A stretch of DNA of 64,000 nt, from IMG/VR virus record IMGVR_UViG_3300006749_000011, positions 21,818 to 85,817 of that record; one strand, 5' to 3'. Below the pieces are notes generated by a model. The model was not told where the DNA came from. It saw only the letters and a program-made list of their open reading frames with translations, and did no database searches. Both the position numbers and the translations under genes were made by a program. This DNA comes from a virus. The first letter of the stretch is position 1. Each line of letters starts with the position of its first letter. Shown in pieces: positions 28,872 through 62,901 of this stretch.

Positions 28872-29339
28872 ATGTCAAACGATATGAAACTTATAATGGA
28901 ATCTTGGAGAACAAACCAACTTTTGTTAGAATCAGGCCAAAAAAATGTTATAAACTTTGCAAAAAACATTGCATCCAATAAAGTATCAGATGAAAAAATC
29001 GAACAGGTTTTTGATAAATTAGAGAAGAATGAAGACTTTTTAAAACTTGTAGATATCTTTAAAAAATTAGAAGAAGAACCTATTGAAGAAGGAGCTTTGC
29101 TTGACGCTGAAGCAACAGTGTCGATTAAAGGAATGCAACTTATGGATTACATAAAAAGACAACCCGGCGGGAATGCTCTATTAAAAGCATCAGGCCCAAT
29201 TATGGCTATGGCTTATATATATACCAAAATAAAAATGGGTCGAGGAGATCTTGACCCTACAGATCTACAATCCGCAGCCGAAATAGCCACAAAAGGAACT
29301 AGTGCAGATCTTGTAGATATCGCCACTGGTGGTGGATAA
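28872..29339 (+). CDS. Small protein with M-K-L-I-M-E-S-W N-terminal tag, unknown function
   Basis: This is a 155-residue protein. Residues 5-12 are M-K-L-I-M-E-S-W, shared with the next gene (M-Q-L-I-M-E-N-W), so the ATG at residue 5 might be the real start. L18-L19-E20 before Ser matches a T4 gp21-type (L/I)-x-E cleavage site. The middle is charged and helical, and the C-terminal part has a hydrophobic Ala/Met/Ile helix (G-P-I-M-A-M-A-Y-I-Y). No known domain is recognised. The tag suggests a virion-packaged internal protein, by inference. Confidence 0.65.
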   Translation: MSNDMKLIMESWRTNQLLLESGQKNVINFAKNIASNKVSDEKIEQVFDKLEKNEDFLKLVDIFKKLEEEPIEEGALLDAEATVSIKGMQLMDYIKRQPGGNALLKASGPIMAMAYIYTKIKMGRGDLDPTDLQSAAEIATKGTSADLVDIATGGG

Positions 29340-29416: not shown

Positions 29417-30142
29417 ATGCAATTGATTATGGAAAACTGGAAACAATTTATAAAAGAAAATGTTGGCTCAAAGTTCAAAATTTTTTTAGATATGGACGGA
29501 GTTCTAGTAGCATTTACCAAAGGTCATGCAGAAGCCATCATAGCATCTATTCAAAAAGACCCAGAGACAATCAAATCTAAAAGTTCAAAAAAAATATTAA
29601 AAAAAATTAACGCCTATCAAGGAGAAGATCGAGAAGAGATTACCATAGACTTTTTAAATAATTTATTAGTTAAAAGAGACAACAAACTTGAAATGACAAA
29701 GTGGGAAAAACTAATAAAAAGTTTTCAATTTAAACCAATAACCAACAACATGGACTATTGGGTTAATTTAGAAAAGGCTGAAGGTTGTGATGAACTAGTT
29801 AAAGGTTGCCGCGATCTTGTTGGCTATGAAAATGTTTACATTTTATCTGCTCCAATAAACAACGACGAAGGCTCTTATCAAGGAAAAATGGAATGGTTAA
29901 AAAACTCTGGTCTTGGCTTTGATGAGGAGCACATTATTTTAAATTCAGAAAAACAAGAAGTGACTGATCGGTTTCCAAACGCTACATGTATTTTAGTAGA
30001 TGATAGAGAAAAATATTTAAATAAATTTGCAGATGAAGATTTGGAAAATCCTGGAATTGGAGTGTTACATTCGCCAAAAGCATCATTAAATGGAGCTAGC
30101 AACTCTTTAAACAAACTTAAAGAAATTATAAAAACTTCTTGA
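29417..30142 (+). CDS. HAD-family phosphatase (5'-nucleotidase-like) with N-terminal tag
   Basis: This is a 241-residue protein. After the tag M-Q-L-I-M-E-N-W comes I12-K13-E14, a potential prohead-protease site. The HAD motif I follows directly: F-L-D-M-D-G-V-L with D25 as nucleophile and D27 as acid/base. Motif II is in Y-I-L-S-A-P, and motif IV is in I-L-V-D-D-R-E-K-Y. The layout resembles 5'(3')-deoxyribonucleotidases (NT5C-like), which act on nucleoside monophosphates, though polynucleotide 3'-phosphatase activity is also possible. It has a dedicated sigma-70 promoter. The enzyme domain starts immediately after the presumptive cleavage site. Confidence 0.75.
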   Translation: MQLIMENWKQFIKENVGSKFKIFLDMDGVLVAFTKGHAEAIIASIQKDPETIKSKSSKKILKKINAYQGEDREEITIDFLNNLLVKRDNKLEMTKWEKLIKSFQFKPITNNMDYWVNLEKAEGCDELVKGCRDLVGYENVYILSAPINNDEGSYQGKMEWLKNSGLGFDEEHIILNSEKQEVTDRFPNATCILVDDREKYLNKFADEDLENPGIGVLHSPKASLNGASNSLNKLKEIIKTS

Positions 30143-34336: not shown

Positions 34337-34609
34337 ATGAAACTCACAGAAAAACAAATCAAAAAGATTATCAAAGAAGAACTCAATAAAATTCTTAAAG
34401 AAAGTATGAGCCCTGATCACCCTGACTATGATCATGTTGCTGGTATTATTATGAGAACTTTTCAAAACATGATGCACCTTGCTCCATTGGTAAAACAAGG
34501 CATGGGGCATATGTTCGAAAATGACATTTATCATCATGTTGCTGAGGAAGCTCCTGAGCATGCAGAGTATATAACCCAAAGAGTAATGCAAATGCTTAAG
34601 GAAGTGTAA
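34337..34609 (+). CDS. Small protein with KITN-type N-terminal tag
   Basis: This 90-residue protein begins M-K-L-T-E-K-Q-I-K-K-I-I-K-E-E-L, the tag shared with five other strongly matching genes here, then L20-K21-E22 before Ser, fitting the prohead-protease rule. The remaining 68 residues are His/Met/Asp-rich (D-H-P-D-Y-D-H-V-A-G, M-G-H-M-F) and helical; the clustered His could bind metal. No family is recognised. Its TAA overlaps the next ATG. It is likely an internal head protein if the tag works as inferred. Confidence 0.65.
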   Translation: MKLTEKQIKKIIKEELNKILKESMSPDHPDYDHVAGIIMRTFQNMMHLAPLVKQGMGHMFENDIYHHVAEEAPEHAEYITQRVMQMLKEV

Positions 34610-35610: not shown

Positions 35611-36027
35611 ATGTTAATAAAAATTATTAAAAAAGTAAAGGACTTGGTATGCCCACCAGCAACTCAGGACCTAGCTCTTAACACAAAGAACCGAGATGCA
35701 ACAATAAAAAAATATAATTACGGTCCTCTAAATGTTGACGAACCAGCAGATTACTGGAAAAAAATAGCTAAGTATTGGAAAACAACTGAAAAAGCAGCTA
35801 TGAAATCTGTGTGTTATAATTGCGTTGCCTTCGACATCTCTCCTCGTATGAAAGATTGTTTACCTGGAGATACTTTTGATGATGACGGTATTTTAGGATA
35901 CTGTTGGATGCACCATTTTAAATGTCATTCTGCTCGTGCCTGTCACACTTGGGCTAAAGGCGGACCAATAAAAAACAATAAAGAATCAGCAGAGTGGCAA
36001 AAGAAAAACTCTGGTGGTATGAAATGA
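35611..36027 (+). CDS. Cysteine-rich protein, possible metal or iron-sulfur binding
   Basis: This is a 138-residue protein. The C-terminal half has a dense Cys/His pattern: C-Y-N-C-V-A-F-D-I, then M-K-D-C-L, then G-Y-C-W-M-H-H-F-K-C-H-S-A-R-A-C-H-T-W. That is enough for a structural zinc or an iron-sulfur cluster; the C-x2-C...C...C arrangement loosely recalls high-potential iron-sulfur proteins. The N-terminus has a short hydrophobic basic helix. The stop overlaps the exonuclease start (ATGA). Function is unknown. Confidence 0.6.
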   Translation: MLIKIIKKVKDLVCPPATQDLALNTKNRDATIKKYNYGPLNVDEPADYWKKIAKYWKTTEKAAMKSVCYNCVAFDISPRMKDCLPGDTFDDDGILGYCWMHHFKCHSARACHTWAKGGPIKNNKESAEWQKKNSGGMK

Positions 36028-37082
36028 AAATAACAAAACAAGATATAAAAAGAATGATAAAAGAAGAACTCCGAAGATTTCTTGATGAAGACTTATCATT
36101 ATTAAGAGACATGACGCCCGGCGATGTTCTCGAGTACATGAGACGAGAATTGAACGGAAAGACTTGGTTTTTTTGGGATTTAGAAACAATTGGTTTTGAT
36201 GGACAGATTACACAATATGGAGCTATAGCTTATAAGATTGATGATATTGATGGTCCGATTCCAACTAAGCCATTGGCCAGATTTGATGTAAATGTTGCTT
36301 TAAATGAAGAAACACTTGAAAGACATATTCTAGAACAGGACACAATAAACAAAGCAGATAAAGTTTTTAGTGATTTTGAAAAAACCCGTGAGCGCACAAG
36401 AGAAATAGATTTTTTATTGAAATTACAAGATAAACGAAAAGAAGGAGTACCTTTCACTGTGGCTGATATGATTGGCTACACAAATTATGTAACAAGACCC
36501 GACGACAGAACTGAGGTTGAAGCTATGGAAGAATTTCTAGCATGGGTTAAAGCTTTAGGTCCAAATGTTGTTTCTGTTGGTCATAATATAAAGTCTTTTG
36601 ACAGAAATAAAATTATAAAAGAAGGGCAAAAACTTGGAATTGATACCAAGGCTTTTGAACAAATAGATATCTTCGACACAGTAAACTTCCAAAGACAAGT
36701 GCTAAAGCAAATAGCACAGTATCAAATGGAACAAGGAGATCCGAGAATGACTCGTTTCTTTGACGGAAAAGAAAAAGAAATAAAAGGCGAAGTAAAAACC
36801 ATAATGTCTTTCAATGGAAAACTTCAAAGAATGATGGATATATATGGACCAGGACCAGATTACATTCAATTGCACACGGCAATTGACGACACAAGGCAAC
36901 TAATTACTGCTTTTTTTAATATGTATACTGAAGTGAAAGACCTTATTATGACTAACGAAAAAATAAGAAACCTATCATCAGCTATAAATGTACCAAGAGC
37001 ACAAAAAGAACTAGGTACGAAAGATACAAAAGACCCATTAGATATCAGTAAAGCACTTAAACGAACAAAGAGGGGATTATGA
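36024..37082 (+). CDS. DEDDh 3'-5' exonuclease (DnaQ-like) with KITN-type tag
   Basis: The start at 36024 gives the tag M-K-I-T-K-Q-D-I-K-R-M-I-K-E-E-L and L20-D21-E22, while an upstream in-frame Met would mask it. The 352-residue protein has DEDDh exonuclease motifs: Exo I F-F-W-D52-L-E54-T, Exo II V-G-H187-N-x4-F-D193, and Exo III H284-T-A-I-D-D289. Length and the insertion between Exo I and II fit a stand-alone phage exonuclease rather than a polymerase proofreading domain. It could degrade DNA or RNA ends. If the tag directs packaging, the enzyme would be injected. It overlaps both neighbours by ATGA. Confidence 0.85.
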   Translation: MKITKQDIKRMIKEELRRFLDEDLSLLRDMTPGDVLEYMRRELNGKTWFFWDLETIGFDGQITQYGAIAYKIDDIDGPIPTKPLARFDVNVALNEETLERHILEQDTINKADKVFSDFEKTRERTREIDFLLKLQDKRKEGVPFTVADMIGYTNYVTRPDDRTEVEAMEEFLAWVKALGPNVVSVGHNIKSFDRNKIIKEGQKLGIDTKAFEQIDIFDTVNFQRQVLKQIAQYQMEQGDPRMTRFFDGKEKEIKGEVKTIMSFNGKLQRMMDIYGPGPDYIQLHTAIDDTRQLITAFFNMYTEVKDLIMTNEKIRNLSSAINVPRAQKELGTKDTKDPLDISKALKRTKRGL

Positions 37083-37453: not shown

Positions 37454-38000
37454 CACAACATTAGAAATTATACAAGGACTAGCACAAGCAGCAGCAAACG
37501 TTTATGACGGAGCCCATGACGAAAGATTTTCCTATGATGGTGAATCAAGAACAATGGGTCTAAAACGAGAAGAAGGCTGTCCAATAATGGACAGCAGAGT
37601 TATAGACGGATTTAAAGTTCGTTTTTATGGAGACTCAATGATTCTTTCATATCAATCAGATATCTTATTGAAAGAAGTTTATACAGGTAGGTTTGAACAA
37701 GACATAGAATCTATGCTAAATGACATTAAAAAGTTTTTAGAAAAAGAATATAGAGCCGTAACAGGTAAATCTGTCTCTCTCACTTCTAAAGGTGAGCCAA
37801 ATATTCTTGTTCAATCAACATCAAGGGTTCGTTCTTTTGTTGAGGCTAACCAACATTTTAAAATTGGTGGAATAGAATCTATGCCGATTCTTGAACCCTC
37901 AATTGACACTACAAGAGATGTAACAAGAAAGTTTCTAGAACAATTTTCAGACAAGCGACCACCAAACGATAAACGTAAAAAAGGAGCAAGTTCAAAATGA
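37446..38000 (+). CDS. Conserved hypothetical phage protein
   Basis: The start is taken at 37446 (M-S-N-T-T-L-E-I-I-Q-G-L), overlapping the zinc-ribbon stop by 8 bases; earlier in-frame codons lie inside that gene. The 184-residue protein has A-A-A-N-V-Y-D-G-A-H-D-E-R-F and L-K-R-E-E-G-C-P-I-M-D-S-R-V-I-D-G-F, a pattern I recall from many aquatic phage genomes without an assigned function. The C-terminus is basic (D-K-R-P-P-N-D-K-R-K-K). It is coupled by ATGA to the next gene and is probably a head- or packaging-associated protein by context. Confidence 0.65.
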   Translation: MSNTTLEIIQGLAQAAANVYDGAHDERFSYDGESRTMGLKREEGCPIMDSRVIDGFKVRFYGDSMILSYQSDILLKEVYTGRFEQDIESMLNDIKKFLEKEYRAVTGKSVSLTSKGEPNILVQSTSRVRSFVEANQHFKIGGIESMPILEPSIDTTRDVTRKFLEQFSDKRPPNDKRKKGASSK

Positions 38001-38743
38001 AAATTTCCAATGAGCAATTAAAGCAAGTTATTCGTGAAGAATTAAACAAAGTTCTTAATGAAAATATAACTGAAAATGGCACTTATCCTATAATAAATTG
38101 GCAATTAATAGAAGAGCACGAAGATACAGATACTCCTTTTGAAATTAATGATGAAGTTGTTGAGATGTTTGCTGGAGATGACGACACATGGATTCGAAAC
38201 ATCTTAGGTGATGAACGTGCCGATAAAATAAGAAAAATGTTTGAAGGAGAAACAGTAGCAGAGTTTTTTGGTAACCCTGCTAATGGGCCAGCAGTTAACC
38301 AATTCTTTTCATTAGTAGAGACCTTAACAGACGTAGAAATAAAATATCCTGTTGGTATGTTGATTCTTGGTGGTGACACACATATTCGTGGATACAAATT
38401 TACCTTTGTTCCTGGTATTGGGTTTTCCTTTGTAGGCGAAAGCGAAAATTTGATAAGCGCAGTTGAAGCAGAGGGAACTGATGGTAAGGTTTACTTTGAA
38501 CCGGGCTACACATCAACTGATAGTTTGTTTGGTAACATGGAATATGTTTTACAAAGATATGGTGTTTTAGAACTTGAAAAAGCAATAAGAATGCATGGTC
38601 GACGTTCCAGGTATAGCGGAACCTCAGTTGATGCTGTTAATTTAGATTTTAACAAACTTATAGAACTTTTAAATAATGGAACATTAGCGGCTAAATGGAG
38701 CCATAGATATTACGGTTACATTATAACAACTCCCTATGAGTAA
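37997..38743 (+). CDS. KITN-tagged protein of unknown function
   Basis: This 248-residue protein starts M-K-I-S-N-E-Q-L-K-Q-V-I-R-E-E-L with L20-N21-E22 before Asn, so it has both the tag and the putative protease site. The remainder is acidic in the first half (D-E-V-V-E-M-F-A-G-D-D-D) and mixed in the second, with L-I-L-G-G-D-T-H-I-R-G-Y and a basic M-H-G-R-R-S-R-Y near the end. No known fold is recognised. It lies directly before the terminase gene with a one-base TAATG overlap. Confidence 0.65.
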   Translation: MKISNEQLKQVIREELNKVLNENITENGTYPIINWQLIEEHEDTDTPFEINDEVVEMFAGDDDTWIRNILGDERADKIRKMFEGETVAEFFGNPANGPAVNQFFSLVETLTDVEIKYPVGMLILGGDTHIRGYKFTFVPGIGFSFVGESENLISAVEAEGTDGKVYFEPGYTSTDSLFGNMEYVLQRYGVLELEKAIRMHGRRSRYSGTSVDAVNLDFNKLIELLNNGTLAAKWSHRYYGYIITTPYE

Positions 38744-40388: not shown

Positions 40389-42305
40389 ATGCCAAAATAT
40401 AAAAAGTCGCCTTACAATCCACAGTCGGATTTATTCAAGGCTTTAACAAAATTGTTGTCCGGCCCAATAACACAAAGAAGAACACAAACTGGTCGAATGC
40501 TGCGGAGAAGACAGCTAGATAACTATGCAACAAAATTTAAATCAGCATCTGGTGCACAGTTTAAAAAATGGGAATATAATCCCATAAACAACGTTACCCT
40601 TAACATGATATCAAATAGAAACAGAGCTGAGCGTTATGTTGATTTTGATGAAATGGAATACATGCCTGAGATAGCATCATCATTGGATATTTATGCTGAT
40701 GAGATGACAACTCATACTGCGCTTCGCCCAATGCTTAATATTAAATGTGCGAATGAAGAGATTAAACACATCCTCCATAACTTATATCATAATGTTTTGA
40801 ATATTGAACACAATCTTTTTGGTTGGGCAAGAACAATGTGTAAGTACGGTGATTTCTTTCTATATCTTGATATTGATGAAGATTTAGGAATTCGATCCGC
40901 TATTGGTTTACCGACAAGAGAGATTGAGCGTCTTGAGGGAGAGGACCAAAGTAATCCAAATTACGTTCAATACCAATGGAACACAGCAGGACTAACTCTG
41001 GAAAATTGGCAAGTTGCTCATTTCAGAATCCTTGGTAATGACAAACACTCTCCTTATGGAACATCTGTTCTCGAAGCTTGTAGGCGTATCCACCGTCAGC
41101 TTATACTATTAGAAGATGCCATGATGGCTTATCGTATTGTTCGTGCTCCTGAGCGTCGTTTGTTTAAGATTGACGTTGGTGGTATTCCACCGCAAGAAGT
41201 TGAACAGTACATGCAAAAAGTCATGACTCAGTTAAAACGACACTCTGTTGTTGACCCAACCACTGGTCGTGTTGATTTACGCTACAACCCCTTGTCAATC
41301 GAAGAAGACTATTATATACCAATTCGTGGAGGCCAATCAGCTACTGACATCTCAAGTTTACCAGGTGCTTCTTACAATGGTGGTATCGATGATGTTAAAT
41401 ACCTTAGAGATAAGTTGTTTGCTGCTCTCAAAATACCACAGTCTTACTTGACAATGGGTGAGGGCGCATCAGAAGATAAAACTACCCTTGCACAAAAGGA
41501 CATTCGCTTTGCAAGAACAATTCAAAGACTTCAACGTGTAGCAATAGCAGAACTCGAAAAGATTGGAATTATTCACCTTTACACGCTTGGTTATAGAAAC
41601 GATGATCTATTAACTTTCAAGCTACAGCTAAACAATCCGTCCAAAATTGCTGAATTACAAGAGCTCGAGCATTGGGACAAAAAGTTTCAAGTTGCTGCGA
41701 ACGCAACAGAAGGATACTTCTCAAAGCGCTGGATAGCAGAAAACATGTTTGGGCTATCTGAAGATGAATTTCTTAGAAACCAAAGAGAAATGTTTTTTGA
41801 CAAGAAGTACATGGCCAAACTTGAAGCGGCTGCTGCTGGTGGAGAAGGTGGAGAAGAACCTGGAGGAGGCGGTGGGCTTGCTGGTGGGCTTGGAGATCTT
41901 GGCGGAGCAGGTGGAGACTTAGAAGGTGACCTTGGTGGTGACCTTGGCGGTGGAGACACCGGTGGAGGTGATGTCGGCGGCGACGAAGGGGGTGACACTG
42001 ATCTGCTCGCCGAACCCTCTGCAAAACGTGATGAGCCACCACCAATTAGAGGAAACTATAAACGTCACCAGTCTTCTTATGACAAAGGCGGCATGAAAAA
42101 ATCAATGCTCGGAGCAACAGGTATAGAAGCTGCTCATTCAACTGGTCGTAACATATATAAAGGATACGTTGGGAACGAATATTCTCTCTCAAATGTATCC
42201 GGCGGCTATTTAGAAGAAGAACAAAAACTAGAAACAGTATCTCGAGAAGTTGAGATGCTTATCGAATCATTAAACACAAAGGAGAAACAAAATGAAGATA
42301 ACTAA
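40389..42305 (+). CDS. 20: Portal protein, gp20-like, with Gly-rich C-terminal insert
   Basis: This 638-residue portal protein forms the dodecameric DNA gate at one head vertex. T4 gp20-type segments include Y-V-D-F-D-E-M-E-Y-M-P-E-I-A-S-S-L-D-I-Y, a clip/stem region with A-P-E-R-R-L-F-K-I-D-V-G, and L-K-I-P-Q-S-Y-L before the wing. T4 gp20 is 524 residues; the excess lies in a C-terminal Gly/Asp repeat tract at about 478-540 (G-G-D-L-G-G-D-L-G-G-G-D type repeats), then a basic tail. The tract is probably a flexible linker. The last 14 bases overlap the next tagged gene. Confidence 0.92.
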   Translation: MPKYKKSPYNPQSDLFKALTKLLSGPITQRRTQTGRMLRRRQLDNYATKFKSASGAQFKKWEYNPINNVTLNMISNRNRAERYVDFDEMEYMPEIASSLDIYADEMTTHTALRPMLNIKCANEEIKHILHNLYHNVLNIEHNLFGWARTMCKYGDFFLYLDIDEDLGIRSAIGLPTREIERLEGEDQSNPNYVQYQWNTAGLTLENWQVAHFRILGNDKHSPYGTSVLEACRRIHRQLILLEDAMMAYRIVRAPERRLFKIDVGGIPPQEVEQYMQKVMTQLKRHSVVDPTTGRVDLRYNPLSIEEDYYIPIRGGQSATDISSLPGASYNGGIDDVKYLRDKLFAALKIPQSYLTMGEGASEDKTTLAQKDIRFARTIQRLQRVAIAELEKIGIIHLYTLGYRNDDLLTFKLQLNNPSKIAELQELEHWDKKFQVAANATEGYFSKRWIAENMFGLSEDEFLRNQREMFFDKKYMAKLEAAAAGGEGGEEPGGGGGLAGGLGDLGGAGGDLEGDLGGDLGGGDTGGGDVGGDEGGDTDLLAEPSAKRDEPPPIRGNYKRHQSSYDKGGMKKSMLGATGIEAAHSTGRNIYKGYVGNEYSLSNVSGGYLEEEQKLETVSREVEMLIESLNTKEKQNEDN

Positions 42306-42612
42306 TAAACAACTAAAACAAATAATCAAGGAAGAACTTGCAGAGGCTATGGGAATGGACTATGCTTCTGATGAGAACATGTCAAGACGAGAAGAATTGG
42401 GACACATTGCCAGTATGCCAACAGAACAACTTATCCAAGCACTAGATGCTATTAAAGCAGATACTCTAGAGATGGGACAAGTTATCGAAATGCTTGATTC
42501 AAATACTGATGGAGAGAAGATAAAAGCAATTGCTATGCATATTTTAAAATTTGATCCTCAAGACAACCAAGCTCAAGGTGTGATGGGCACTCGTGTTCCT
42601 ACCGGATTATAA
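42292..42612 (+). CDS. Small KITN-tagged protein in the head operon
   Basis: This 106-residue protein begins M-K-I-T-N-K-Q-L-K-Q-I-I-K-E-E-L. Instead of L20-x-E22 it has L16-A-E18, still matching (L/I)-x-E. The rest is acidic and helical (M-P-T-E-Q-L-I-Q-A-L-D-A-I-K-A-D). It lies between portal and protease, where T4 keeps the small prohead core genes 67 and 68, so a core or internal head role is plausible. It starts inside the portal gene's end. Confidence 0.65.
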   Translation: MKITNKQLKQIIKEELAEAMGMDYASDENMSRREELGHIASMPTEQLIQALDAIKADTLEMGQVIEMLDSNTDGEKIKAIAMHILKFDPQDNQAQGVMGTRVPTGL

Positions 42613-42630: not shown

Positions 42631-43434
42631 ATGAAACATAATAAGAAAAGAAATACCGCTTTTCTTTACGAGTGCTTAATCAAAGAAATGACAAAGGCAG
42701 TTGTAAGAGGAGAGCTTCAAAAGAAACAACAAATCGTTGAGACCCTAAAGGGATACTTCTCAAAAGGAACTCCTCTGTATGATGACCTTCAATTATACAA
42801 ACAATTAATGGAAACCAAGAATTTAAAAGAATCTCTTGGGATTCGTTTTATGGAAGAAGTAAAAAAAGATTGGGAGAATTTAGACAGAAAAGAAATTTTC
42901 AACCAACAAACCCAATTGATAAAAGAATTTAACAACAGCTTACCAGAAGCATTTGGTAATTTTATTCCCAATTATAAATCAATTGCAACAGTTGGCCAGT
43001 ATTTCAATTCTGGAGGCCTTAAAGCAAAGACCCGTCTATTGATAGAGGAAAGACTTAAAACGCTTGTTATTTCGCATTCTGAGGCGGTTAAAGAGCAAAA
43101 ATTAAAAACGGTAGATAGTCTTACTTACAATACATTCGTTAATAAGTTCAACGACACATATAAAGAAAATCTTTTAAAAGAACAAAGAGAATTATTGACA
43201 AACTATATTACATCATTCTCAGATAACGGATTAGGGCTTAAAGTGTTTATGAACGAAGAGCTTGGAAGACTAAAAGAACAATGTGAAAACTTAAACAAAG
43301 ATAAATGGCCTGACAAAATAAGGCTAATTAAACAGAAGCTTGAAGGCTTTAAAAAGAAACCTTTAACAGAAGAAGTTGTCAAAGATGTCTTTCACATCCA
43401 ACAGCTACTATCGGAGATTAAACAAAATGTATAA
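42631..43434 (+). CDS. Helical head-operon protein, unknown function
   Basis: This 267-residue protein has a strong AAGGAG ribosome-binding site. It is Lys/Glu/Leu/Asn-rich and predicted almost entirely helical, beginning K-H-N-K-K-R-N-T-A-F-L-Y-E-C-L-I-K-E-M-T-K-A. The lack of enzyme motifs and the place between portal and prohead protease suggest a prohead core or packaging-linked structural protein, but no homology to T4 gp67/gp68 is visible. It overlaps the next start by 8 bases. Confidence 0.65.
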   Translation: MKHNKKRNTAFLYECLIKEMTKAVVRGELQKKQQIVETLKGYFSKGTPLYDDLQLYKQLMETKNLKESLGIRFMEEVKKDWENLDRKEIFNQQTQLIKEFNNSLPEAFGNFIPNYKSIATVGQYFNSGGLKAKTRLLIEERLKTLVISHSEAVKEQKLKTVDSLTYNTFVNKFNDTYKENLLKEQRELLTNYITSFSDNGLGLKVFMNEELGRLKEQCENLNKDKWPDKIRLIKQKLEGFKKKPLTEEVVKDVFHIQQLLSEIKQNV

Positions 43435-44120: not shown

Positions 44121-45362
44121 ATGAAAATCAGAATAATAAAAAACAAAAAACAACTTAATGAAGAGTTTTATTTTGAACAAGGCTTTGACCAAGAACAGAG
44201 ACCTCCGGCAAACCCCTTATCGTTAAAATTGGTTAAGCTTATTATTAGCAAATTACCAGGTGCAAAAAAATTTAGTATGCGTACTCACAAAATGCGACCA
44301 CTACAAGCATCAGGAGCAGAAGGGGTTGTTGTCGGTATAGATGACAAAAGAGTAATAAAACTTTTTCATGATGTTAGCAACGCTGCAAAAAACCTGCACT
44401 TGGTTTCTCAAGATATTCCTGAAACCGCTCAAGTTTACTCTATGGGAAAAATTATTCTTAATGATCCTGTGGTTTATTATAAATTTGGGTCTTCTCATAA
44501 TGCGAGAACTCTCGCTAATCCAACAAAAGAATTATACTTTATAGTCATGCAGAGAGTTGTTCCGGATAGTTATATATATCGATATGTCGATGAAGTTTGG
44601 AAAAAACTAAATATGGTTTTCCAAACAACCTCAGATGCTTTTGTAAAGATGTTTTCCACAGGTGACCCTTTCATCAAACGAAGAATAAATAAAATTTATG
44701 AAAAAATAATGGCAGACCCAGAATTTTACAATGTTCCAGAGAAATTGCAGAATAATTATAAACAAGGAAAGGTTGACACTTTCGACATTCTTATAAAAAG
44801 TAAGAAAGATCTGGCAAGATTCAACACAGCTCTTGGGGTTTATAAAAAGAAAGAAAGAAAAGCAAGAAAACAAAAAGGTTTAAAAGGAGCAGAAGCTCAA
44901 TTATATTTGTTATATGATGTTAAAGGTTATCCAGTTAGTTTAAAAAATCTTATTCTGAATAAAATAGGAGCTAAAGAAGACATACCTTTTATCGATTCTA
45001 TTTGGTCTACACTCATGCAGTCTCCTGAGATGAAAAAAACAGCAAAGAAACAACACCCTTTAAACAAAAACAAAGGAGCCACTTTAGCAGATGATTTACA
45101 AGAAATTACAAATTTAATAAAGGCTATAAGAGTTGACAAAGGTTTAGCTTGGAACGATATTCACCAAGAACAGTTTGGTAGAAATGAAAGGGGAGACCTA
45201 ATAGGTCTAGACTTGGGAATCAAAGGAACAGCAAAAGAACTAGCAGCCGCTCCGGGTAAATTTGAAGCTGCAAACATTATAAGAGTTGCCACAAACTTTG
45301 ACCAACAAGGTCAACCCACAATGACTTTAGCAGAATCTAAAAAAAAAAGTATAAAACGCTAA
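44121..45362 (+). CDS. Protein-kinase-fold protein, probably extended by -1 frameshift into a HAD domain
   Basis: This 413-residue protein starts M-K-I-R-I-I-K-N-K-K-Q-L-N-E-E-F, with L12-N-E14 as a possible protease site. Kinase-fold signs are a Gly-containing loop then V-I-K80-L-F (ATP-binding Lys), a catalytic-loop-like W-N-D346-I-H-Q-E-Q-F-G-R-N355, and a DFG-like G-L-D364-L-G366. The Glu of helix C and the peptide-binding lobe are unclear, so it may be an atypical or inactive kinase. Ten consecutive A at 45339-45348, eight codons before the stop, lead in the -1 frame into a HAD domain without its own start codon. Confidence 0.75.
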   Translation: MKIRIIKNKKQLNEEFYFEQGFDQEQRPPANPLSLKLVKLIISKLPGAKKFSMRTHKMRPLQASGAEGVVVGIDDKRVIKLFHDVSNAAKNLHLVSQDIPETAQVYSMGKIILNDPVVYYKFGSSHNARTLANPTKELYFIVMQRVVPDSYIYRYVDEVWKKLNMVFQTTSDAFVKMFSTGDPFIKRRINKIYEKIMADPEFYNVPEKLQNNYKQGKVDTFDILIKSKKDLARFNTALGVYKKKERKARKQKGLKGAEAQLYLLYDVKGYPVSLKNLILNKIGAKEDIPFIDSIWSTLMQSPEMKKTAKKQHPLNKNKGATLADDLQEITNLIKAIRVDKGLAWNDIHQEQFGRNERGDLIGLDLGIKGTAKELAAAPGKFEAANIIRVATNFDQQGQPTMTLAESKKKSIKR

Positions 45363-45859
45363 ACGTTTTTGATTTTGATAGAACCCTGTTTTGGACCATC
45401 GAGAAAGAAGAGGGATCAAAAAAATGGGAAAATATATATGGAAAACCATACCCTCACAAAGGGTGGTTCGGAAGAGCTGAGAGTCTAGATGTGAAGTTGA
45501 ACATTCCAATCAACAAGACAATGAAAAAAATTTATGATACTTTAAGGTCTGATCCTGATGGGCTTTGTGTTTTAAATTCAAATCGATATATCGGACTTGA
45601 AAAAACAATTAAAAGTTTTTTGACATATCATGGTTTCAAAATGGACGCGGTTTTGTTAAAGACTGGAAAAGACAACAAAGGACACAACTTGCAGGAATTT
45701 TGGAATGATTACCCAGAGGTTACTATTATAAACTGCTTTGATGATAAGGATGCGTCTCTAAATCACTACAAGAAATTAGAAGATAGGTATTCTATTTATA
45801 GAGAAGATTTGACTTTTAATATCTACAAAGTCACAAAAAACGGAATAACAAAAGTTTAA
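45341..45859 (+). CDS. HAD phosphatase domain (Swiss-Army-Knife RNA-repair type), reached by -1 frameshift
   Basis: The frame opens after a TAA at 45338-45340 and has no ATG, GTG or TTG before the catalytic motif I, N-V-F-D-F-D-R-T-L at 45362-45388. The first possible start, GTG at 45491, would remove the nucleophile, so translation most likely arrives by -1 slippage on the A10 run, giving a kinase-HAD fusion. Motif II is L-N-S-N-R and motif IV is F-D-D-K-D-A-S. The F-D-F-D-R-T-L-F-W and downstream G-W-F-G-R-A-E-S-L-D phrases recall the HAD_SAK family linked to RNA repair. About 170 residues. A homopolymer sequencing error is the main alternative. Confidence 0.72.
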   Translation, partial: KKKYKTLNVFDFDRTLFWTIEKEEGSKKWENIYGKPYPHKGWFGRAESLDVKLNIPINKTMKKIYDTLRSDPDGLCVLNSNRYIGLEKTIKSFLTYHGFKMDAVLLKTGKDNKGHNLQEFWNDYPEVTIINCFDDKDASLNHYKKLEDRYSIYREDLTFNIYKVTKNGITKV

Positions 45860-45869
45860 TAGGAGAAAA

Positions 45870-46184
45870 ATGCTTAACTTTATACTTGCCGCTTATGGCT
45901 TAACATTTATCCTTGTATATGGAAAGATATTCGAATCTCTCCGACCAAACAAAGACCCAAACAAAATGTGGACACTTTTGTTCTATTGTCCTTTGTGTAT
46001 GGGGTTTTGGGTTGGAGCATTTTTATTTTGCATTAACAATCAAACAGAACTATTTACATTTGATTATACAATCGCCAATTTCTTTATTTGCGGTTGGATT
46101 TCTGCTGGAACATCTTATCTGATTTCTATGTTGGTTGATGATTTTGGCTTTCGCATTTCAAAAATTGGAGATAAAGATGAATAA
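45870..46184 (+). CDS. Small integral membrane protein
   Basis: This 104-residue protein has three hydrophobic spans: an N-terminal A-A-Y-G-L-T-F-I-L-V-Y-G, a central F-Y-C-P-L-C-M-G-F-W-V-G-A-F-L-F-C, and a C-terminal F-I-C-G-W-I-S-A-G. The C-P-L-C-x-G-F-W-V-G signature resembles the DUF1360 family of small membrane proteins of unknown function. A TAGGAG ribosome-binding site is present. It interrupts the run of nucleic-acid enzymes, so it may act at the host membrane, but nothing more can be said. Confidence 0.65.
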   Translation: MLNFILAAYGLTFILVYGKIFESLRPNKDPNKMWTLLFYCPLCMGFWVGAFLFCINNQTELFTFDYTIANFFICGWISAGTSYLISMLVDDFGFRISKIGDKDE

Positions 46185-46230
46185 AAAATGGATGTTACAA
46201 CCGGTTCGTCGTTGCTGTTCAGGCAGCTGA
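46177..46230 (+). CDS. Possible 17-residue leader peptide
   Basis: ATG at 46177 overlaps the end of the membrane-protein gene and has GGAG six bases upstream. It encodes M-N-K-K-W-M-L-Q-P-V-R-R-C-C-S-G-S and stops at 46230, inside a run of short hairpins just before the 2H phosphoesterase gene. It is short and unconfirmed. It could be a translational-coupling or attenuation leader, or chance. Confidence 0.25.
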   Translation: MNKKWMLQPVRRCCSGS

Positions 46231-46260
46231 CTCAAGCGGGTTGCGCCCGCATTATTTATT
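46208..46260 (+). terminator. Tandem hairpins, possible attenuator/terminator
   Basis: GCTG-TTCAGG-CAGC (46214-46227, with flanking GTC/GAC) is followed by GCGGG-TTGCG-CCCGC (46236-46250) and ATTATTTATT. It is locally GC-rich against an AT-rich background. The tail is not a pure T run, so termination would be partial. The two stems are clear in sequence; the function is inferred. Confidence 0.4.
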
Positions 46261-46272
46261 ATGGAGAAAAAA

Positions 46273-46773
46273 ATGAAAATTACAAACCAACAATTAAGAA
46301 GAATAATTAAAGAAGAACTTGATACTGTTTTAAGTGAAGGAAAAGTTTCTTATTCCGGAGTTGTTCTTGATCCTCAAAGCGTAGAGGCTTTAAAACAAGC
46401 CGCACAACAAATGGGTGTGCCTGAAGGTTTTGTTCACGAAACAAAAGCTGGTAATCCTTTGCCTCATCACATGACAATTGTACCTTTCTCACCTATTGTT
46501 CATCCAAAAGGTAAACATGACTTTAGTGCTGATTATCCTGTTGGTGAACAAGTTTCACTACAAGTAACTCACATTGGATTTGATGATAAAGCTATGGCTG
46601 CTAAGGTCGAACCACCAGCTCCAATTTCTAAGAAAGTAAAGTTTCCACATATTACAATAGCTATTCCTGAGGGTGGAAAACCTTTTAATTCAAATAAAAT
46701 TCCACAGGAAAACTTTCAACCTTTGCTACAACCACTAACTGTAACAGGTGTGGTAGAAGAGGTAGAATCATGA
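46273..46773 (+). CDS. 2H phosphoesterase with KITN-type tag
   Basis: The start is taken at 46273: the upstream in-frame ATG at 46261 overlaps the GGAG that serves this start. The 166-residue protein begins with the tag M-K-I-T-N-Q-Q-L-R-R-I-I-K-E-E-L and L20-S21-E22 before Gly. The two 2H motifs are H66-M-T68 and H126-I-T128, about 60 residues apart, as in LigT/2'-5' RNA ligase-like and anti-CBASS Acb1-type phosphodiesterases. It would open 2',3'-cyclic or 2'-5' phosphodiester bonds. Candidate roles are RNA end healing or destruction of cyclic-nucleotide defence signals. The stop overlaps the next ATG. Confidence 0.8.
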   Translation: MKITNQQLRRIIKEELDTVLSEGKVSYSGVVLDPQSVEALKQAAQQMGVPEGFVHETKAGNPLPHHMTIVPFSPIVHPKGKHDFSADYPVGEQVSLQVTHIGFDDKAMAAKVEPPAPISKKVKFPHITIAIPEGGKPFNSNKIPQENFQPLLQPLTVTGVVEEVES

Positions 46774-47489
46774 AAATAACTAATGGACAATTGAGAAAAA
46801 TAATCAAAGAAGAGTTGTCTTATGTTTTAAGAGAAAACATGGGTTTAAAAATGTTTGTCCTTGTCGGTCCACCATCTGTTGGTAAATCAACTTGGATTAA
46901 CAGCACATTTGGTGAAAATAGACCCTATGTTATCAATCGTGATGATATAGTTGAAAATGTAGCTTCTGAGTATGGTTGGACTTATGACGATATGTTTGCA
47001 ACACCACCAGAGGACGCACAAATTGGCAGTGTAGATCAAAAATATGGAGAAGTTCAAGAATCACCAAACTGGATGACTTGGGCAAAATCTGTTTTTTCTA
47101 CTGTAATGGAAGCAAATGGTAAGGTCCACAGCTTATTTGCACAAAGAGTATCAGGTGCTGTGGGTAGTGGTCAAGATATTGTCGTCGATATGACAAATAT
47201 GAATGCAAGAGCAAGATCTGGTGCACTAAAAGCAATTGAAGGTGCTGAAGATCAATATGAAAAAATTGCAGTTGTGTTTGAATCTAAAGGTGCTGAGGAA
47301 TTTATCAAAGCTGTTGCTCAAAAAAGAGCCGAAGCAGCTGCGAGAATGGGTAAATCTAAAACAATTCCTCCCGCTGTATTTGACAGAATGTTTGCATCGT
47401 TTGAAGATGTAAGTATGGATGAAGGGTTTGACAAAATAGTAAGTGTAGACAATAGACAATTACTACAAAAACTAGCTAGTGAGATGTAA
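46770..47489 (+). CDS. P-loop kinase, polynucleotide-kinase-like, with KITN-type tag
   Basis: This 239-residue protein has the tag M-K-I-T-N-G-Q-L-R-K-I-I-K-E-E-L and L20-R21-E22 before Asn. The kinase follows at once: Walker A G33-P-P-S-V-G-K-S40-T, then I-N-R-D-D-I-V, then V-V-D-M-T-N-M-N-A-R-A-R. The lid region runs R-A-E-A-A-A-R-M-G-K-S-K-T-I-P, ending E-G-F-D-K-I-V. That layout matches T4 polynucleotide-kinase-type proteins, which phosphorylate 5'-OH RNA or DNA ends. Unlike T4 Pnkp no phosphatase domain is fused; a HAD domain lies two genes upstream. It overlaps the 2H gene by ATGA. Confidence 0.82.
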   Translation: MKITNGQLRKIIKEELSYVLRENMGLKMFVLVGPPSVGKSTWINSTFGENRPYVINRDDIVENVASEYGWTYDDMFATPPEDAQIGSVDQKYGEVQESPNWMTWAKSVFSTVMEANGKVHSLFAQRVSGAVGSGQDIVVDMTNMNARARSGALKAIEGAEDQYEKIAVVFESKGAEEFIKAVAQKRAEAAARMGKSKTIPPAVFDRMFASFEDVSMDEGFDKIVSVDNRQLLQKLASEM

Positions 47490-47493
47490 AACA

Positions 47494-48123
47494 ATGACCA
47501 AACAACTATTAACAGAATTTTTTGAATTATGTCCTGATGGAACTTGCATTGATCGTTTAAGTGAATCTCAAAAACGTGAAGTAATTAAAGAGGGAGCCGT
47601 TTATCTTGTTGGTCGCATTCAAACTGCTGATAAAAAGAATGGCAATGGGCGCGTTTATCCGATGAAAGTTCTTAAAAAAGAAGTAGACAATTATAAAAAA
47701 ATTGTTGCTGATGGAAGAGCCACAGGTGAATTAGATCATCCTGATGATTCTGTGATTAATTTAAAGAATGTTTCGCACATGATCACAGAATGTTGGTGGG
47801 AAGGTAAAGATGTTATGGGTAAAATCAAAGTTCTTGATACCCCTTCTGGTCGTATTCTTAAAGATCTAATTAATGCAGGTGTTAAACTTGGAATTTCTTC
47901 TCGTGGTCTTGGTTCTGTAAAAGAATCAATGGGCGATACTGTTGTTGAGGAAGACTTTCAATTAATTTGTTTTGATATTGTGGCTGAGCCTTCAACACCA
48001 AATGCTTACGTTTATCCAAAAAATAACCACTCAGGAATAAACAGAGGCGCAATGAAATTTAAAATTGCCGAGGGTAAAGAAAACAATATTGATCAACTAT
48101 TTAATAAGATCTTGAGGGACTAA
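47494..48123 (+). CDS. 21: Prohead core protease, gp21-like
   Basis: The start is the ATG at 47494 (M-T-K-Q-L-L-T-E); an in-frame GTG 15 bases earlier lies in the previous gene. The 209-residue serine protease of the gp21/herpes assemblin-like fold carries His82 in G-E-L-D-H-P and Ser135/136 in I-S-S-R-G-L-G-S, both diagnostic, plus W-W-E-G-K-D-V-M-G and A-E-P-S-T-P-N-A-Y-V as in T4 gp21. It cleaves scaffold, major capsid and internal proteins after (L/I)-x-E during head maturation. Its own N-terminus has L-T-E8, a possible self-cleavage site. It is coupled by TAATG to the next gene. Confidence 0.93.
   Translation: MTKQLLTEFFELCPDGTCIDRLSESQKREVIKEGAVYLVGRIQTADKKNGNGRVYPMKVLKKEVDNYKKIVADGRATGELDHPDDSVINLKNVSHMITECWWEGKDVMGKIKVLDTPSGRILKDLINAGVKLGISSRGLGSVKESMGDTVVEEDFQLICFDIVAEPSTPNAYVYPKNNHSGINRGAMKFKIAEGKENNIDQLFNKILRD
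48095..48103 (+). promoter_or_regulatory. AACTATTTA element before 48123
   Basis: Exact AACTATTTA lies inside the 3' end of the protease gene and ends 19 bases before the ATG at 48123, the same spacing as at 28872, 29417 and 48766. The position in coding sequence makes it less certain, but the spacing is suggestive. Confidence 0.35.
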
Positions 48124-60978: not shown

Positions 60979-62901
60979 ATGTCTATAATTCAAAAATTAT
61001 CAGAAGGCATCGTAAATCGTGATTTGAAAAAGGAAGGTCAAGCTCTACTCACTAAGTGGGAAGCTACCGGACTTCTTGAGGGTATTGATACCCAACAAGG
61101 CAAGCACAATATGGCGCGTCTTCTAGAAAATCAAGCGAAGGAACTTCTTCGCGAATCTAACGCAATGTCAAACGGACAGGTTGAAGGTTTTGCAACTGTT
61201 GCATTCCCAATCGTTCGTCGCGTTTTTGCAGGTTTGATTGCTAACGATTTGGTATCGGTTCAACCGATGTCTCTTCCTAGTGGTCTTATCTTCTTCCTTG
61301 ACTTTGTTTACTCACCAAGAATTGGTGATAACAACGTTACTGATGCTGGTAGTGCTCAAAATGGTCGTATGGGTAACCGTGCTTCAAAATCAATTTATGG
61401 TACAAACCAAGTCGGTTCAGAAGTAATCAATGGTGTTGATCTTGTCAACAATACCAACAAATCCGGATTTAGTGGTCCTGGTCGTGATGGTATGGTTGGT
61501 TATGGCTATGCTAACGCAACAGCTTCTAGTGATCAGGTTAGTGCTGGTGCAGCTAATATGAAAGTACAAACTTTCTTGTTGGATGGTGCCGTATCTGAAA
61601 CTCGTAAAAAATTAATTAAGTACGATCCTGATCTTTTGGCTCAAACAGACAGCTCGAGAGGTGTTATTGTTTTAGATATTGCTAAAAGTGCAATTACTTC
61701 TTCTCTCGGACCAGCTGATTTTGATAACTTAGCTGCTTTTGAGCTACAAGGCCTTATAGCAGATGGAACTAACGCCAATAATCTTCTTGCAACGTTAGCC
61801 GCTAACAGCTCTGGAATCACTTCTGGTTCTGCTACATCAACCGGTTTGATTGCAGATCACAGTATTGCTCAAGTTAGACGCTTGTCAAGTGTTGTTAAGG
61901 ATGCTGCTGATTCTTATACTTTAACAGCTGGGTCTGGTGACTCTGTTCGTTTTGTAATCTCTGCTGGTAGTTCTGTTGTTACAGCTGCTTCGGCTGCTGC
62001 TCATGGTTCTGATGACTTGGAAGCTGCTGCTATTATCTTCCCAGTTAGAGATCAGTTTGGTGTAAACTCTGGTGCTACTTTAGGTGTTATTGATGACTTC
62101 AACTTCCCATTTGAAGGAAACGGCGACATGCCAGAAATCGACATCAAAGTTGATTCAATCGCGATCACAGCTCAAACCAAAAAGCTTAAAGCTAAGTGGA
62201 CACCTGAGTTGGGACAAGACTTGAATGCTTATCACAACCTTGATGCCGAGGTAGAACTTACATCGATTCTTTCTGAGCAAATTGCTTTGGAAATTGACCG
62301 TGAGTTACTTGCTGATCTTGTAAATGGTGCAACTGCTGCAACATATTACTGGTCTCGTGCTCCTGGGCTTTTTGTAAATCGCCAAACTGGTGCTGAGCTT
62401 GGTGCTTCTTCTGCTGCTCCTGACTTTACAGGAACTGTTTCAGAATGGTATGAAACTCTTATTGAAACCATTAATGACGTTTCTGCACAAATCCACTTGA
62501 AGACACTTCGTGGTGGAGCTAACTATGTAGTTTGTTCTCCTGAAGTTGCTAATATTTTAGAATTTACTTCTGGATATCGTGCAAACGTTACGGCTGATGC
62601 TGACAAGGGAACCATTGGTGCCGTTAAGGTTGGTTCTCTTTCTCGTAAGTTTGACATCATCGTTGATCCTTACTTCCCAAGAAATGCTATTCTTGTTGGA
62701 CGTAAAGGCGGTTCTTTCTTAGAATCAGGATACGTTTATGCTCCTTACGTTCCACTACAAACAACACCTACAATCTTCGGTGTTGAGGACTTTGTGCCAC
62801 GTAAAGGCGTAATGACTCGATACGGTAAGAAGATGGTTCGTCCTGATATGTACGGTCTTGTAATTGTTCGTGGTCTTACAGGTGAAGAAGGTTCTTCCTA
62901 A
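60979..62901 (+). CDS. 23: Major capsid protein, gp23-like
   Basis: This is a 640-residue HK97-fold capsid protein of the T4 gp23 type. Residues 1-59 look like the cleaved delta propeptide (L-L-T-K-W-E-A-T-G-L-L-E-G, L-L-E-N-Q-A-K-E). L57-R-E59 before Ser is the expected gp21 cleavage site, and T4 gp23 is cut after L-T-E65. Then come V-A-F-P-I-V-R-R-V-F and V-Q-P-M-S-L-P-S-G, which match V-R-R and V-Q-P-M-x-x-P-T-G of T4. The C-terminus has V-E-D-F-V-P-R-K-G and R-Y-G-K-K-M. It forms the head hexamers. GGAG site and a terminator downstream. Confidence 0.94.
   Translation: MSIIQKLSEGIVNRDLKKEGQALLTKWEATGLLEGIDTQQGKHNMARLLENQAKELLRESNAMSNGQVEGFATVAFPIVRRVFAGLIANDLVSVQPMSLPSGLIFFLDFVYSPRIGDNNVTDAGSAQNGRMGNRASKSIYGTNQVGSEVINGVDLVNNTNKSGFSGPGRDGMVGYGYANATASSDQVSAGAANMKVQTFLLDGAVSETRKKLIKYDPDLLAQTDSSRGVIVLDIAKSAITSSLGPADFDNLAAFELQGLIADGTNANNLLATLAANSSGITSGSATSTGLIADHSIAQVRRLSSVVKDAADSYTLTAGSGDSVRFVISAGSSVVTAASAAAHGSDDLEAAAIIFPVRDQFGVNSGATLGVIDDFNFPFEGNGDMPEIDIKVDSIAITAQTKKLKAKWTPELGQDLNAYHNLDAEVELTSILSEQIALEIDRELLADLVNGATAATYYWSRAPGLFVNRQTGAELGASSAAPDFTGTVSEWYETLIETINDVSAQIHLKTLRGGANYVVCSPEVANILEFTSGYRANVTADADKGTIGAVKVGSLSRKFDIIVDPYFPRNAILVGRKGGSFLESGYVYAPYVPLQTTPTIFGVEDFVPRKGVMTRYGKKMVRPDMYGLVIVRGLTGEEGSS

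Follow-up and report, generated by a model that had tools for sequence, protein, structure and literature searches.

The virus record IMGVR_UViG_3300006749_000011 (85,817 bases) represents a T4-like phage that appears to pack RNA end-mending enzymes into its particle by means of short, swappable N-terminal tags. The window analyzed here, a stretch of 64,000 nucleotides corresponding to bases 21818-85817 of the record, belongs to this phage, which has a gp20-type portal, a gp23-type capsid protein and an S77 prohead protease. Beside the protease gene lie the four proteins pointed out in the initial annotation: a kinase-like protein, a HAD phosphatase domain of the Swiss-Army-Knife type (HAD_SAK), a 2H phosphoesterase and a P-loop protein resembling polynucleotide kinase (PNK). 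All four are present, with a corrected start for the HAD frame. The gene set, the catalytic motifs, the modularity of the tags, the [LI]xE sequences at the tag ends and the fusions of these families with CCA-adding enzymes can be read in the sequences themselves; from them we infer packaging and cleavage, injection into the cell, catalysis and its substrate, and slippage at the kinase/HAD junction. We consider it probable, by a modest measure, that the cargo of a T4-type capsid-targeting system is here an RNA end-healing set, with sealing or CCA addition left to the host. By portal, the two nearest isolates are Flavobacterium phage immuto (43% identity) and Microcystis phage Mel-JY01, and tag-like N-termini are visible in immuto; a search turned up no virion data. 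The features on which the argument turns are as follows.

44121..45362, + strand: kinase-like open reading frame (ORF), 413 residues, assigned at motif level; type C tag MKIRIIKNKKQLNE at 44121-44162
45339..45348, + strand: run of ten A (A10) at the kinase/HAD junction, 0-frame AAA AAA AAA AGT; candidate -1 slippage site
45341..45859, + strand: HAD phosphatase domain, HAD_SAK type, lying at -1 to the kinase-like ORF, which it would extend
45371..45385, + strand: HAD motif I, DFDRT (DxDxT); both aspartates of DFD invariant in the HAD alignment
46261..46773, + strand: 2H phosphoesterase; type A tag MKITNQQLRRIIKEELDTVLSE at 46273-46338, HMT at 46468-46476, HIT at 46648-46656
46770..47489, + strand: PNK-like P-loop protein; type A tag MKITNGQLRKIIKEELSYVLRE at 46770-46835, P-loop GPPSVGKST at 46866-46892
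47479..48123, + strand: prohead protease, Peptidase_S77, T4 gp21 family (1.4e-32), adjoining the PNK gene; presumed to cleave tagged proteins after [LI]xE

Exchangeable N-terminal tags and cargo slots

Three types of tag were distinguished: A (MKITxxQLKxIIKEELxxVLxE), B (M(K)LLxENWRKFLxE) and C (MKIRIIKxxxLNE). The suggestion that at least two of the four proteins carry a putative capsid tag is borne out by type A on the 2H and PNK proteins, and the kinase-like ORF bears a different one, type C. The type A tag (MKIT..QL.xIIKEEL) occurs in six proteins of the record, namely 2H, PNK and four others, which have nothing obvious in common outside it, and its pattern did not occur once among 150,000 N-termini that had been shuffled. 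When 41 tagged proteins were aligned, the consensus was likewise confined essentially to the tag. At least six proteins of the record besides the kinase-like, 2H and PNK proteins carry such tags; they are given here together with the major capsid protein.

28872..29339, + strand: type B-tagged protein, tag MKLIMESWRTNQLLLE
29417..30142, + strand: type B-tagged NT5C-like HAD nucleotidase, tag MQLIMENWKQFIKE
34337..34609, + strand: type A-tagged small protein
36024..37082, + strand: type A-tagged DEDD exonuclease, RNase T-like
37997..38743, + strand: type A-tagged protein, no function assigned
42292..42612, + strand: type A-tagged small protein with weak Toprim similarity
60979..62901, + strand: major capsid protein, gp23 family, with LLRE at the expected propeptide end

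The same enzyme bodies occur with different tags among related contigs, and for each of the three bodies two or more unrelated tags are seen at the N-terminus. The PNK body is joined to tag A in the window and in L004-L006, to tag B in L008-L011, L013, L014, L019, L022, L029, L034 and L037, and to other N-termini elsewhere; the 2H body carries tag A in the window, L041-L044, L063 and L064, and tag B in L065 and in the distant L013 and L034; the kinase-like body carries tag C in the window and L053, and tag B in L054. Of 39 type A tags 29 end in [LI]xE, as do 26 of 28 tags of type B, compared with about 7% in equally long windows of the protein bodies, and the tags of the window end in VLSE (2H), VLRE (PNK) and QLNE (kinase-like). 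In the capsid protein, LLRE aligns with IVSE and LISE of two isolate phages, the glutamate being kept as [LIV]xE.

In phage T4, gp21 cleaves after L/I-X-E, and internal proteins bear targeting peptides of this kind (PMC9026906). The arrangement described here shares with the capsid-targeting sequences of T4 (those of IPI-IPIII and Alt, cut by gp21) a short N-terminal peptide common to unrelated proteins, its L/I-x-E end and an adjacent gene for a gp21-type S77 protease; the T4 IPII/IPIII N-terminus, MKTYQEFIAEA, resembles type B. It differs in that the tags, known from genes, are longer, have other sequences (A, B and C) and are exchanged between bodies, and in that the T4 cargo is a restriction inhibitor or an ADP-ribosyltransferase, whereas the cargo here is predicted to consist of RNA end-processing enzymes. 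Because the same bodies swap tags and the tags mostly end in [LI]xE, we read them, with good confidence, as putative capsid-targeting sequences. A tblastn search of isolate phages with a 45-residue concatemer of the tag, a short query, found no match, and the tag strings were not found in any paper in a literature search.

The stretch between the gene at 43376 and the protease gene has two slots for cargo, one on either side of a small conserved gene (45870-46184). In the window the slots hold kinase-HAD and then 2H with PNK; in L004, nothing and then PNK; in L053, the kinase-like protein with a metallopeptidase-like protein and then PNK; in L041, a metallopeptidase-like protein and then 2H; and in L043 and L044, other tagged proteins and then 2H. 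A tagged 2H gene sits ahead of the terminase gene in L063-L065. Tagged 2H and PNK genes are adjacent in L013 as well, and L034 has both, tagged, with HAD_SAK within about 10 kb.

Several further tagged proteins were observed. The DEDD exonuclease (RNase T superfamily) is also tagged in L004 and L045 and is a candidate for trimming RNA ends or small signals. Contig L065 (5516-6382) encodes a type A-tagged pentapeptide-repeat protein (Pfam, 1.1e-50), and such proteins can mimic DNA. The NT5C-like HAD nucleotidase has a tag-like N-terminus both in the window and in immuto (L086:4857-5456). A type C-tagged cargo protein with an HELEH motif (L053:7257-8480 and L041:8462-9607), with no Pfam match over the cut-off, is a possible injected metallopeptidase.

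The kinase-like protein and the HAD frame

Initially described as having a kinase fold, the product of the first ORF does have conserved kinase-like motifs: VIKLF, VMQRV, NDIHQEQFG and LDLG are invariant or nearly so across three homologues, the conserved features including the lysine of VIKLF, the NDIHQEQFG loop and LDLG. The homologues in L053 and L054 are 66% and 41% identical. The fold is another matter, as no match was found in the Pfam, NCBIfam and PADLOC libraries and PHROG returned matches at chance level; a profile search against solved structures found nothing, and an AlphaFold2 (AF2) model built from three sequences (mean predicted local distance difference test score, pLDDT, 49) gave no usable fold. 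Because there is no family match, the kinase assignment is made at motif level. A fusion of PNK with a kinase-like domain in L034 (11946-13967), suggested by eye, obtained a probability of 1.6% in profile comparison and was not counted.

The HAD domain has motif I (DxDxT) and a later acidic motif, with acidic and Ser residues retained at the remaining HAD motifs. For the Swiss-Army-Knife type (HAD_SAK_1, PF10307) its Pfam score is 24.7 bits, slightly under the cut-off of 25.6 (67.5 bits for the relative in L034). Its annotated GTG start at 45491, downstream of the catalytic motif, is incorrect: from 45341 onward the frame runs without a stop, reads KKKYKTLNVFDFDRTLFW and includes NVFDFDRTLFW, and no ATG, GTG or TTG start codon occurs in it upstream of the catalytic motif. 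The kinase-like ORF ends AAA AAA AAA AGT ATA AAA CGC TAA, so that a -1 shift within A10 would join it to the HAD frame. No other A/T run in the 85.8-kb record reaches the length of A10, and the independent contig L040, with 99.7% identity across a gap-free 6.9 kb, has the same run. In L054 (5953-7599) the kinase-like and HAD domains form a single ORF, the HAD part beginning SVKTLNVFDFDKTLFF, with KYKTLNVFDFDRTLFW as its counterpart in the window. Programmed -1 slippage at A10 yielding a kinase-HAD protein is plausible.

Alternatively, the HAD frame may be the dying remnant of a fused kinase-HAD gene that an insertion or deletion within the A run broke in two, the kinase-like part alone being made, a reading that we regard as possible, if rather doubtful. 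No stimulatory RNA structure or downstream hairpin was detected at A10 (z -0.46 and -1.08), a start codon is missing as well, and L053 carries the kinase-like gene without HAD. Relative to L040, the HAD part has two non-synonymous and one synonymous codon differences, compared with none and four in the kinase-like part, and no clear purifying selection on the HAD part was seen in this comparison; owing to these differences and the missing structure, a once-fused gene may be decaying. Decay is harder to square with 165 stop-free codons in a genome of 65% A+T, with the intact motif I and the retained positions of the remaining HAD motifs, and with an A10 that is shared by two contigs and is itself a good slippage site. 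This sub-question concerns the HAD domain and is compatible with each of the readings of the whole set weighed below.

The 2H and PNK proteins and probable RNA end repair

The 2H assignment is upheld by two H-x-[ST] motifs (residues 70-72 and 130-132) in a duplicated beta-alpha fold, the hallmarks of the superfamily, and by a Pfam match to tRNA_lig_CPD, the phosphodiesterase domain of fungal tRNA ligase, that is borderline at the cut-off (5.9e-5). In one homologue (L050=L079) the first motif reads HRMT. In the AF2 model (pLDDT 81) the tag forms a helix at residues 9-25, and the best fold matches are CNPase catalytic domains, the fungal RNA kinase/CPD and a 2'-5' RNA ligase-like protein. The model thus supports an alliance of the window 2H with RNA-end enzymes of the CNPase/Trl1-CPD branch, with which it shares both HxT motifs; sequence identity is about 13%. 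The initial annotation had also considered an Acb1-type enzyme, and this option is not supported. Acb1 (T4 57B) belongs to the same superfamily, and its profile match to the window 2H is weak and not significant (probability 3-10%); no Acb1 structure is among the 50 fold matches listed for the model. A search of bacterial genomes confirmed no member of this 2H family. In L075 and L084 (6992-9756), a 2H-CCA gene is interrupted by an insert ORF of 331 residues resembling a mobile intron or endonuclease.

The PNK-like protein matches AAA_33 (5.5e-13) and the PHROG polynucleotide kinase family (1e-10), in agreement with its initial naming. Comparison with T4 Pnkp bears this out in part: the P-loop, the equivalent of Asp35 and DxTN (Asp85 in T4) are present, whereas the position of Arg38 is a valine (NRDDIV), as in most of the family, which has Val or Ala. 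In T4 Pnkp, Asp35 is the general base and Arg38 binds the acceptor; as the arginine is missing, the acceptor of the window enzyme may differ. Unlike T4 Pnkp, it has no phosphatase domain. Some PNK homologues (L015, L016, L017, L020 and L030) lack an N-terminal tag. Tag-like C-termini (SLKESIRRTVRKELW; QESLKKIRKII), perhaps for C-terminal targeting as in T4 Alt, are found in homologues both without an N-terminal tag (L015) and with one (L029).

The RNA end-healing chemistry proposed for these enzymes gains support from the company that their families keep in other viral contigs. The 2H, CCA-adding and HAD domains form one polypeptide in L051 and L077 and lie side by side as genes in L050; a CCA-2H fusion has HAD nearby in L070 and L048; 2H adjoins CCA in L066-L069; 2H is fused to HAD in L080 and to a P-loop kinase (AAA_33) in L071 and L085; and in L012 a member of the window PNK family (65% identity) is fused to a CCA enzyme. 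CCA enzymes are accordingly present in L012, L048, L050, L051, L066-L070 and L077. Jumbo-sized contigs with 2H, CCA and HAD also encode RNA ligase and RlaP. On the strength of these fusions and neighborhoods, the 2H, HAD and PNK families would act in the repair of RNA ends, most likely those of tRNA.

The E. coli multifunctional CCA protein combines a CCA-adding domain with an HD phosphohydrolase. It thus couples CCA addition with the removal of phosphates from 3' ends, and the 2H-CCA-HAD proteins of L051 and L077 seem to be built for the same combination; its hydrolase fold differs from 2H and HAD, and the window has no CCA domain. RNA repair by the same enzyme classes has been proposed for jumbo phages, whose sets comprise 2H, HAD-SAK, PNK, CCA and RlaP (PMC7824862). 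Together with T4 Pnkp and Rnl1/Rnl2, these sets resemble that of the window in enzyme classes and likely chemistry. The window set is distinguished by its capsid tags and head-gene cargo slots, by a HAD joined to a kinase-like domain, by a PNK without phosphatase domain, and by a record in which ligase, RlaP and CCA enzyme were not found.

Other genes of the record include one resembling the RuBisCO large chain in its upstream part (L002:13372-14562; Pfam RuBisCO_large, 7.4e-32), with sugar-nucleotide and glycosyltransferase genes as neighbors, a PhoH-like ATPase with PIN and PhoH matches (L002:1135-2472) and, in a scan of 54 proteins, ribosomal protein S21 (2.3e-14).

Proposed course of repair and alternative readings

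We hypothesize that the short N-terminal tags would guide enzymes of unrelated kinds to the prohead core, that the gp21-type protease would remove them after [LI]xE during maturation, and that the freed enzymes would be ejected together with the DNA. In the cell, 2H would open 2',3'-cyclic phosphates, HAD, which would be made as a kinase-HAD fusion via -1 slippage at A10, would remove the remaining phosphate, and the P-loop kinase would phosphorylate 5'-OH ends, so that tRNAs or other RNAs cut by host defense ribonucleases could be restored. The host's CCA-adding enzyme, such enzymes being nearly universal, could complete the repair of 3' ends, and internal breaks would need a ligase that the host supplies or that is encoded in sequence absent from the record. 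In its full form, as a virion-borne tRNA end-healing kit of tagged 2H, HAD made by programmed slippage, and 5' kinase that enters with the DNA, acts on damage before phage gene expression, is finished by the host and spreads its bodies by tag exchange, the proposal is advanced tentatively, as somewhat short of probable.

Several observations weigh against it. Relatives do not keep the set together, having 2H without PNK, PNK without 2H and kinase without HAD at the same site, and a fixed module is not supported. Scattered and untagged copies in related phages would have told against the initial annotation; scattering is seen in part (2H before the terminase in L063-L065), and in this phage group the tags are retained, untagged versions of the enzymes occurring in other viruses, in some cases alongside a CCA enzyme. 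As that annotation had noted for the locus, no RNA ligase (Rnl2/PF09414, RtcB/PF01139 or Rnl1/PF09511) was found in this record and nine related ones, every one of them possibly incomplete, the Rnl1 control matching nowhere; the same records, which hold the tagged relatives, yielded no CCA-adding enzyme. Because neither was found, the phage genes do not by themselves complete the repair path. Nor were tRNA genes found in the window or the scanned stretches. To these are added the valine in place of Arg38 in PNK, a kinase-like domain assigned by motifs without a fold, the HAD_SAK_1 score slightly below its cut-off, the missing stimulatory structure and the codon differences in the HAD part. The phage is moreover known from a metagenomic contig, so packaging is argued from genes.

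Three other readings of the locus were considered. The enzymes may be independent cargo without a common pathway, for example PNK acting on DNA ends, HAD in nucleotide salvage and the kinase on host proteins, their nearness being due to the slots; relatives do swap single genes within the same slots, and metallopeptidase-like, pentapeptide-repeat and NT5C-like cargo has no obvious link to RNA repair. We regard this as unlikely, given that members of these families are elsewhere joined to one another in pairs and to CCA enzymes, and that tagged 2H and PNK recur together in L013 and, near HAD_SAK, in L034. Still less probable is a counter-defense against nucleotide signals, in which 2H, with HAD or the exonuclease, would degrade cyclic oligonucleotide or cyclic ADP-ribose signals as Acb1 does, PNK and HAD being unrelated cargo. 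An injected enzyme would act early, which fits the removal of signals, the record also encodes an RNase T-like exonuclease with a tag, and Acb1 is itself a 2H enzyme with the same HxT...HxT layout, whose T4 gene adjoins the internal-protein gene ipI; the best fold matches are nevertheless 2',3'-cyclic-phosphate enzymes, with no Acb1 among those listed and a weak T4 57B profile, and the fusions of relatives to CCA-adding enzymes, HAD and P-loop kinases point to RNA ends. Finally, the tags might serve as helical docking segments for a shared phage or host partner, with the [LI]xE end incidental. The helix in the 2H model, the PNK homologues without an N-terminal tag and a phage known from genes would fit; we nonetheless hold this to be about as improbable as the signal reading, as the architecture equals that of the T4 capsid-targeting sequences, the genes surround the prohead protease, [LI]xE is strongly enriched at the tag end, and several unrelated tag types do the same job.

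Under the preferred reading, that of RNA end-healing enzymes as capsid cargo, what would be new is the union of T4-type capsid cargo with phage RNA repair; a literature search for packaged RNA repair found none, and no paper on such a union. The tRNA repair enzymes of T4 are made once infection has begun. If the tags work as capsid targeting, some phages would bring RNA repair along, and instant ribonuclease defenses would meet ready-made repair. The 2H-CCA-HAD proteins of other viruses may likewise mark tRNA 3'-end damage as a testable target of host immunity. The tags themselves could offer a sequence handle for predicting injected proteins in uncultured T4-like phages, with the sequence that follows them listing candidate host-takeover and counter-defense proteins.

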